Shown: piece after piece, positions 1 to 44,182 of the stretch | Layout of the letters: each line of letters starts with the position of its first letter | How positions within the stretch are numbered: the stretch's first letter is position 1 | Assembly: GCA_018396435.1 (NCBI GenBank) | Contig: JAGTRG010000006.1 | Location: forward strand, 1 to 47,164 | DNA length: 47,164 nt | From: Candidatus Bathyarchaeota archaeon | GTDB lineage: Archaea; Thermoproteota; Bathyarchaeia; Bathyarchaeales; DTEX01 | Reading direction: 5' to 3' | Program-made: the position numbers and the translations under genes | The notes under the pieces: generated by a model | Databases searched by the model: none | Seen by the model: only the letters and a program-made list of their open reading frames with translations | Told to the model about the DNA's origin: nothing

Positions 1-1016
1 AAACCAGAAAACCATATAACGGCTTTGTCACAAAAGGTGAGTGTGATGCACACCAAAAGGCGGCTAAGCTTTTGGTGGAAGCCCAAAAGCAAACTGAAAA
101 GCAGGAAGCGGGAGCCACAGAAAAGGCAAACGAGGCCGATCTTTATGGAAAAATCGTTGAGTTTCTCTGGTGGATGAAGAAGCAGGGATATAAAGAAACA
201 ACAATAATTGGAAAAGGTTCAAGGTTAAAGAGGCTAGTAGCACTTGGAGCCAACCTTCTCGATCCAGAGAGCGTTAAAGAAGTTCTAGCCTCGCAAAACT
301 GGTGTGACTCTGGAAAGGAGACAACAGCTTACGCTTATGACCTTTTCGCCAAATACATGGGAATGAAATGGGAAAGGCCTTCATACAAACCAGCTAGAAA
401 ACTGCCTTTCATTCCAATTGAAAGAGAAATTGATGATTTAATAGCCGGATGCAACAATAAATCGGTGGCAACGTTTCTTCAGATAGCTAAGGAAACAGGT
501 GCAAGAGCAGGTGAAATCTTCAACTTGAAATGGATCGATGTTGACTTTGAAGCTAAAACTTTAAGAATTACACCCGAAAAAGGAAGCAACCCAAGAATGC
601 TTCGCATGTCTAGCAAACTGATTGGAATGCTTCAAAGTCTTCCCAAAACTAGCGAGAGAATCTTTGGCAACTATAGGCGGCTTAAAGACTTAAGCCGAAC
701 TTTTGAAAGACATAGAAAAAGGATAGCGTATAATCTTGGAAACCCGAGGCTACTTAGGATCAGCTTCCATACTATACGACATTGGAAGGCAACTATGGAA
801 TACCATAGGACAAAGGATATACTTCACGTAATGCAAATGTTAGGGCATAGAAACATCAAGAATACGCTTGTATACACACAATTAATCAATTCCCAAGAAG
901 ATGGTGAATATGTTTGTAAAGTGCCAAAACAGTGGAGCAAGCCTCCGAGAATTGAAGCTGGCTTTGAGTATGTATGTGACTTCGACTGTGTAAAGTTGTT
1001 TAGAAAGAGAAAGTAG
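1..1016 (+). CDS. Tyrosine recombinase/integrase (XerC/D-like), 5' end open at window edge
   Basis: C-terminal domain has ETGARAGEIFNLKW (Arg box I) and HTIRHWKATMEYH...MLGHRNIKNTLVYTQ (HxxR, H, Y). The frame stays open upstream of the listed start at 72 (...RKPYNGFVTKGECDAHQKAAKLLVEAQ), so the true start is probably outside the window. Confidence 0.9.
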   Translation, partial: TRKPYNGFVTKGECDAHQKAAKLLVEAQKQTEKQEAGATEKANEADLYGKIVEFLWWMKKQGYKETTIIGKGSRLKRLVALGANLLDPESVKEVLASQNWCDSGKETTAYAYDLFAKYMGMKWERPSYKPARKLPFIPIEREIDDLIAGCNNKSVATFLQIAKETGARAGEIFNLKWIDVDFEAKTLRITPEKGSNPRMLRMSSKLIGMLQSLPKTSERIFGNYRRLKDLSRTFERHRKRIAYNLGNPRLLRISFHTIRHWKATMEYHRTKDILHVMQMLGHRNIKNTLVYTQLINSQEDGEYVCKVPKQWSKPPRIEAGFEYVCDFDCVKLFRKRK

Positions 1017-1041: not shown

Positions 1042-1119
1042 TGGTGCGGCCGCCGGGATTTGAACCCGGGTTAACGGCGCGGGGGGCCGGTGTCCTAGAC
1101 CAGGCTAGACCACGGCCGC
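1042..1119 (-). tRNA. tRNA-Gly(CCC), intronless, encoded CCA
   Basis: Minus strand GCGGCCG-TG-GTCT..GGAC-A-CCGGC-CCCCCGC-GCCGT-TAAC-CCGGG-TTCAAAT-CCCGG-CGGCCGC-A-CCA. Acceptor, D and T stems are perfect. The anticodon stem has a C27xU43 mismatch and position 33 is C. Confidence 0.85.
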
Positions 1120-38022: not shown

Positions 38023-38157
38023 GCCCCAGCTCCGCAGGCCGACGTCTTAATCCTGGCTAGACTACGGGTCCATAATTCAACGTTTCGGCTGATCTAATTT
38101 AGTTTGGCGGACCCGGTGGGATTTGAACCCACGATCTCCGGCTTTCCGCGCTGGGGC
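38023..38157 (-). tRNA. Circularly permuted tRNA-Arg(GCG) gene: 3' half 38105-38143, 33-nt intervening sequence 38072-38104, 5' half 38032-38071
   Basis: Minus strand: GCCCCAGC-GCGG-AAA-GCCGG-AGATC-GTGGG-TTCAAAT-CCCAC-CGGGTCC-G-CCA ... GGACCCG-TA-GTCT-AGCCAGGATTA-AGAC-G-TCGGC-CTGC-GGA-GCTGGGGC. The halves are in reversed order. They share acceptor stem GGACCCG/CGGGTCC, anticodon stem TCGGC/GCCGG, 8-bp terminal helix GCCCCAGC/GCTGGGGC, BHB central helix CTGC/GCGG and 3-nt bulges GGA/AAA. Joining gives loop CUGCGGA. Confidence 0.93.
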
Positions 38158-38171
38158 ATATTTGACATGCA

Positions 38172-38181
38172 ATTTATAAAT
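38172..38181 (-). promoter_or_regulatory. Candidate TATA box for the permuted tRNA-Arg gene
   Basis: atttataaat lies about 15-24 nt upstream (minus strand) of the GCCCCAGC leader. Confidence 0.45.
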
Positions 38182-38333
38182 GAAGGAAAGGAAATTATAA
38201 ATGCTTTGTCTATTTCGCTGCGGCTATCCCTAGATTCATGTTCAGACTCGATGACGCATCATCCCCATATGGAATAAATGGGATGATAAGAGCTTTTATA
38301 TTTCTGATGGTGGAATCATTTCTTGGTGTTTAT

Positions 38334-43621: not shown

Positions 43622-44182
43622 TTAAAAATTTAATTGCGAGACGGAATAATATACTATCTCTCCTCTTCTGTTTATCACGGCCAATATAAGGGTCTTCTTT
43701 AAATTTTGCGCGCGATTTAGTATTTGGGCCAGATCTTCCGTGAAGAGAGGCATGCCTTCATATATTCCCAAAACTAGGTAATTTGCAGAGTCCTTACTAT
43801 ATTCGCCTCTCTCATAAAGGCGGAAATCTATGCCTAATCCAAAACCATCGCGCACAACGTAGCCTCTGCTTCTTAAATCACGGTAAATTAAGTATTTTAC
43901 CCATGCATTTTCATCAACGTTCTTATATTTTTCCAGTAAATCCTGAAACCCAGCTGGTTTTCCAGTTTTATCATCTTTAATTTTAAGCAGCCCTTTGCTG
44001 TGCAAATACATGGCTTCATAGAAGGCTAAGATCAGTTTTCCATCCTTCGGTGTGCCATAGCCTTTTGAGGATAAACTCTCAGCGTCCTCAGCGGACTCAA
44101 CTAGGACCCCCTCATCCCTAAGCAGGGCTTTAATGTCCTTTTTACTTACTTCATCTTTCTTCTTAATGTTATTAGGCAACAT
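43622..44182 (-). CDS. endA: tRNA-splicing endonuclease (EndA family)
   Basis: VKYLIYRDLRSRGYVVRDGFGLGIDFRLYERGEY...NYLVLGIYEG...LKKTLILAVINRRGEIVYYSV. Catalytic Tyr and Lys regions are present; the His position appears to be Ser. Confidence 0.9.
   Translation of the reverse strand: MLPNNIKKKDEVSKKDIKALLRDEGVLVESAEDAESLSSKGYGTPKDGKLILAFYEAMYLHSKGLLKIKDDKTGKPAGFQDLLEKYKNVDENAWVKYLIYRDLRSRGYVVRDGFGLGIDFRLYERGEYSKDSANYLVLGIYEGMPLFTEDLAQILNRAQNLKKTLILAVINRRGEIVYYSVSQLNF

Follow-up and report, generated by a model that had tools for sequence, protein, structure and literature searches.

A probably functional circularly permuted tRNA-Arg(GCG) gene, joined at positions 37 and 38, in a family of Bathyarchaeia

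Layout of the locus and folding of the predicted precursor

The window analyzed here is the whole 47,164-nucleotide (nt) stretch of contig JAGTRG010000006.1 (positions 1 to 47,164, forward strand; GenBank assembly GCA_018396435.1) from Candidatus Bathyarchaeota archaeon. On the minus strand, positions 38157 to 38023 hold a circularly permuted transfer RNA (tRNA) gene, tRNA-Arg(GCG), in which a leader is followed by the 3′ half of the tRNA, a spacer, the 5′ half and a trailer (Table 1). As expected of a circular permutation, both halves lie on one strand, with the 3′ half first and the spacer between them. Joining the GG that ends the 5′ half to the A that opens the 3′ half yields a 79-nt tRNA with a full cloverleaf, called tRNA-Arg(gcg) by ARAGORN.

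An earlier sequence-only reading of the window, made by a model, had proposed this order of halves, their coordinates and the 33-nt spacer, all of which were correct at every position, as well as a complete cloverleaf upon joining, with which the ARAGORN call agrees. It had also described perfectly complementary outer ends leading into a canonical bulge-helix-bulge (BHB) motif. The unconstrained minimum-energy fold of the 135-nt precursor reproduced this structure, i.e. a strict BHB joining positions 37 and 38, with an 8-base-pair (bp) outer helix, a 4-bp central helix and 3-nt bulges AAA and GGA. The fold is more stable than those of most shuffled sequences (z = −3.4; 1 of 200 shuffles was equally stable). 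Thus, the termini form a BHB at the junction, both in the minimum-energy fold and by covariation across 13 genomes (see below).

The intact locus was undetected by ARAGORN and by Rfam at the gathering score, and a generic tRNA model returned a 15.8-bit fragment of the T arm and nothing more, so that the tRNA-Arg(GCG) of these genomes is overlooked by standard annotation, as the same reading had anticipated. At relaxed thresholds, Rfam gave matches to permuted transfer-messenger RNA (tmRNA; 18.6 bits) and tmRNA (15.0 bits), both mostly covering the T arm and short of the cut-off of 47 bits, and to YrlA (19.4 bits, far under the cut-off of 69); all three were rejected. A scan for permuted tRNAs on both strands of 1.16 Mb of DNA returned this gene and its homologues and no others; because of this result, and because 12 other genomes carry the gene, a chance arrangement is excluded.

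Table 1 Coordinates of the permuted gene and associated features within the window.
Feature	Position	Strand	Basis
Promoter-like region with conserved ACAAAGCATTTATAA element (B recognition element (BRE)/TATA-like), upstream of 3′ half	38158-38230	(−)	Alignment of homologues and the G007 conventional gene
Leader GCCCCAGCGCGGAA	38157-38144	(−)	Fold, covariation
Leader, outer-helix 5′ strand GCCCCAGC	38157-38150	(−)	Fold, covariation
Leader, central-helix strand GCGG	38149-38146	(−)	Fold
Leader, first two bulge bases AA	38145-38144	(−)	Fold
3′ half, position 38 to encoded CCA, AGCCGGAG...CGGGTCCGCCA	38143-38105	(−)	ARAGORN on joined halves
Intervening spacer, 33 nt	38104-38072	(−)	9-34 nt in homologues
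5′ half, positions 1-37, anticodon GCG, GGACCCG...CCTGCGG	38071-38032	(−)	ARAGORN on joined halves, homologues
Trailer AGCTGGGGC	38031-38023	(−)	Fold, covariation
Trailer, third base of bulge GG/A	38031	(−)	Fold
Trailer, outer-helix 3′ strand GCTGGGGC	38030-38023	(−)	Fold, covariation
EndA paralog (tRNA splicing endonuclease, PF01974) without the catalytic His	43622-44182	(−)	Sequence comparison

Conservation and covariation in related genomes

When related genomes were examined, as the sequence-only reading had suggested, a BLAST search of the organism's own genome and 100 relatives identified the whole 135-nt arrangement in 12 further genomes (74-98% identity), and one relative (G007) was found to have a conventional gene at the same locus. 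The 13 permuted homologues served to build a covariance model, which was searched against 165 genomes from the order and 260 from the class as a whole; among the 260 Bathyarchaeia genomes, the 13 scored 132-152 bits and the next best match scored 46 bits. Matches at or below 46 bits are taken as a group to be conventional tRNAs, because the permuted-tRNA scan, which covered the best of them, turned up no additional permuted gene. The permuted gene is present in 10 of the 11 genomes of the window's genus; a second genus within this family has it in 3 of 6 genomes. Among named genomes, a pattern search matched ten records, of which nine carry the title Candidatus Bathyarchaeota and the tenth the title uncultured archaeon.

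Across the 13 genomes, the tRNA halves are nearly invariant and the spacers have diverged, ranging from 9 to 34 nt in length. Every pair of the outer helix varies, yet 99% are paired, and three pairs have changed on both sides. Pairing over the outer and central helices together amounts to 98.7%, compared to 28-43% when the 3′ partners are slid by 1-3 columns. The helix pairing and the compensatory changes are the main indication that the BHB is under selective maintenance.

Promoter-like element, copy number and alternative explanations

An AT-rich BRE/TATA-like element lies upstream of the 3′ half at the permuted loci and is common to the conventional gene of G007. In the alignment of homologues, no conserved TATA-like element was found within the spacers; the TATAAA in the spacer of G004 is not conserved. 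This distribution bears on the possibility of a split tRNA, whereby the halves would be trans-spliced from separate, adjacent transcripts. Adjacent split halves exist in Aeropyrum (PMC3218864), and the BHB would look identical. However, both halves are on the same strand here, the conserved element is upstream of the 3′ half, and the spacer is just 9 nt in four homologues, which is too short for a promoter; we consider a split tRNA improbable.

In each permuted genome, the GCG 5′ half is single and located in the permuted gene. A conventional tRNA-Arg(GCG) elsewhere, for which the sequence-only reading had recommended a search, was not found within three mismatches in the organism's own genome or in any of the 12 other permuted genomes, and several of these assemblies are 95-99% complete. 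In archaea, CGU and CGC codons are expected to be decoded by tRNA-Arg(GCG), and these two codons are used 127 times among 9,266 codons in twenty genes of the window, including 25 times in rpoB. Because the permuted gene is the only GCG copy found and CGU/CGC codons are in use, it is probably essential. Four genomes (G014, G017, G020 and G013) yielded neither the GCG 5′ half nor a conventional copy, probably due to assembly gaps or divergence; among these, G014 is 95% complete, and the permuted gene is present in G019, a close relative of G014.

The locus might also be a dead remnant of a tandem duplication, left unused while an undetected linear gene does the work, as the incompleteness of the organism's own assembly (87%) would allow. 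Both genera have retained it while compensatory changes accumulated in its outer helix, and no linear copy was found in the 13 genomes, which makes this explanation very unlikely. Assembly rearrangement, which the sequence-only reading had itself named as a possible refutation, or bin contamination is hardly credible even with every sequence coming from metagenomes, given that it is contradicted by 13 separate assemblies whose flanks and spacers have diverged (74-98% identity) and by ten named GenBank contigs from different isolates.

Several observations weigh against a functional permuted gene. All genomes compared are metagenome assemblies; the organism's own assembly, at 87% completeness, could be missing a linear copy, though relatives up to 99% complete lack one as well; and the ligase RtcB was found neither in this assembly nor in that of G004, a carrier of the permuted tRNA (99% complete). 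Nevertheless, conservation in 13 genomes, outer-helix covariation, the upstream element, the failure to find a linear copy and CGU/CGC usage together make function, as initially proposed, the best supported interpretation: by sequence comparison and modeling, the locus is very probably a functional circularly permuted tRNA-Arg(GCG) gene, and probably encodes the organism's sole tRNA with a GCG anticodon.

Predicted maturation and splicing machinery

By analogy with known archaeal and algal pathways, maturation of the permuted tRNA would proceed via EndA, RtcB and RNase P and a circular intermediate. A single promoter upstream of the 3′ half, suggested by the conserved element, would transcribe the leader, 3′ half, spacer, 5′ half and trailer. 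In the transcript, the leader and trailer are predicted, from in silico folding and covariation, to form the 8-bp helix and the strict BHB at 37/38. EndA, probably an α2β2 enzyme, would cut GG/A between 38032 and 38031 and AA/A between 38144 and 38143; the tRNA ligase RtcB would then join G37 to A38, forming a 112-nt circle, from which RNase P and 3′ processing would release the 33-nt spacer to leave the mature tRNA with its CCA. The circular step is known from algae and is called unclear for archaea in a review (PMC3978253).

Most genomes of the family encode two EndA paralogs (PF01974). In the paralog within the window, Ser replaces the catalytic His, and no His was seen at this position in any relative read, whereas the other paralog, at C39, keeps the catalytic Tyr, His and Lys, with triad positions as in the M. 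jannaschii enzyme. The His-less paralog is a probable structural β subunit, and the pair of paralogs fits an α2β2 splicing endonuclease. Such an enzyme is reported for Thermofilum pendens and is said to accept strict and relaxed motifs alike (PMC3978253). The gene for the His-less paralog is located 5.5 kb from the permuted tRNA gene, with LSm and M48 genes between them, and the two remain linked in many g1 genomes. Of 21 family genomes, 16 encode RtcB, the ligase known to join tRNAs in archaea, and these include 11 of the 13 with the permuted gene; RtcB was not found in the G000, G004 and G007 assemblies.

Comparison with known permuted tRNAs

The archaeal permuted tRNAs that we found reported come from one species, T. 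pendens, and both are joined within the T loop, at 59/60; their spacers measure 7 and 1 nt, and they have an extra intron at 37/38 (PMC3218864). The gene described here resembles them in being archaeal, in encoding CCA, in placing the 3′ half first, in its BHB-type junction, in having a single upstream promoter and in occurring in an organism with an α2β2 endonuclease, the last two being predictions in our case. It differs in isotype, in the junction, which is at 37/38 instead of the 59/60 of the Thermofilum type, in lacking an intron, in its longer spacers (9-34 nt) and in its presence in 13 species. The sequence-only reading had cited Thermofilum as an archaeal precedent; permuted tRNAs are indeed known there, but the difference in junction had gone unnoticed.

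The 37/38 junction has been described from algae, as type II permuted tRNAs of Cyanidioschyzon, green algae and the Bigelowiella nucleomorph; a circular intermediate was demonstrated experimentally in algae (PMC3978253). The Bathyarchaeota gene shares with these the junction in the anticodon loop and the BHB-type termini. However, the algal genes are eukaryotic and do not encode CCA, whereas the present gene is archaeal, encodes CCA and has a strict hBHBh′ motif, in contrast to the relaxed hBH motif of green algae and the nucleomorph. Compared to the conventional intronless tRNA-Arg(GCG) genes of the same family (G007, G011, G012 and G015), it has the same isotype and anticodon arm, whereas the conventional genes have their halves in the normal order and need no BHB.

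No report of a permuted tRNA in Bathyarchaeota was found in full-text literature searches, whose coverage did not extend to subscription journals and preprints, so that priority is uncertain. An apparently sole-copy tRNA permuted at the canonical intron position, in two genera and with covariation, offers an opportunity to test whether the circular intermediate observed in algae also serves archaea, and the sister species with an ordinary gene at the same place allows a direct comparison for gain and loss of permuted tRNA genes.

Origin and replacement of the permuted gene

The GCG genes of the family relatives G007, G011, G012 and G015 are conventional and lack introns, and contiguous GCG genes occur commonly throughout the order; we therefore regard the ordinary arrangement as ancestral. 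By comparison with these relatives, the permuted gene would descend from a conventional gene without an intron that occupied this locus.

In a concatenated tree of RpoB and neighboring genes, G007 is nested within the permuted genus as the partner of G005 (support 100/100), and the approximately unbiased (AU) test rejected a grouping of the ten permuted genomes that leaves G007 out (p = 8 × 10−8). With RpoB alone, a clade of all permuted g1 genomes that excludes G007 was not rejected (AU p = 0.10). The conventional gene of G007 adjoins the same M48 peptidase gene and small open reading frame and has the same upstream element as the permuted genes. The simplest reading is that in G007 a conventional gene replaced the permuted one. 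Other Arg tRNAs in the relatives G000, G001, G004, G006 and G010 share an identical 3′ half with the G007 gene, so that gene conversion is a possible route for such a replacement.

In the second genus, the permuted gene is at a different locus. The acceptor pair A3:U70 and the T-stem pair G49:C65 are common to the permuted genes of both genera and point to a single origin; the gene may since have been inherited vertically and lost in places, or may have passed from one genus to the other, and the data do not separate these two routes.

According to a published model, permuted tRNA genes originate by duplication of an intron-containing tRNA gene (PMC3978253). This model may need a variant here because the GCG genes of the relatives are intronless. 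Tentatively, and with rather more doubt than confidence, we propose that the source of the permuted gene was a tRNA gene without an intron, as opposed to one that contained an intron, and that the change is reversible, as in the replacement in G007, where locus and promoter are the same. The CUGCGGA sequence of the anticodon loop is self-complementary, as CUGC can pair with GCGG; when a tandem copy of the G012 gene is trimmed and folded in silico, it adopts a similar outer and central helix. In addition, the trailer resembles the 3′ exon (p = 0.001-0.03 per genome, or 0.003-0.06 with the first A fixed, the genomes not being independent). The tandem-copy fold and the likeness between trailer and 3′ exon are suggestive traces of an intronless origin; conceivably, an intron may instead have been lost in the immediate ancestor, which is compatible with the same data.

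The block between the tRNA-Arg(CCG) and tRNA-Arg(GCG) genes is rearranged among the close relatives G002, G005 and G007. These two tRNA genes resemble each other, face in opposite directions and may mediate the rearrangement.

Other tRNA loci

Some other tRNA loci also show unusual structures. The tRNA-Arg(CCG) genes of the family (L158-L166, L168-L172 and L176-L178) appear to be interrupted by an intron that precedes the anticodon, in the region of the anticodon stem. A tRNA-Arg-like gene (L063, G000:C1:13284) is heavily interrupted by apparent introns, which leave its spliced anticodon loop ambiguous. The ARAGORN call of an intron-bearing tRNA-Pyl(cta) (L018, G000:C2:30336-30432) may reflect a misread isotype. 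At L028 (G000:C15:80-180), part of the T-arm sequence of a tRNA recurs within ~100 bases after its 3′ end, possibly as an integration scar. Within the window, an apparent tyrosine recombinase gene (72-1016, plus strand) directly adjoins tRNA-Gly(CCC) (1042-1119, minus strand), as at an integration site.
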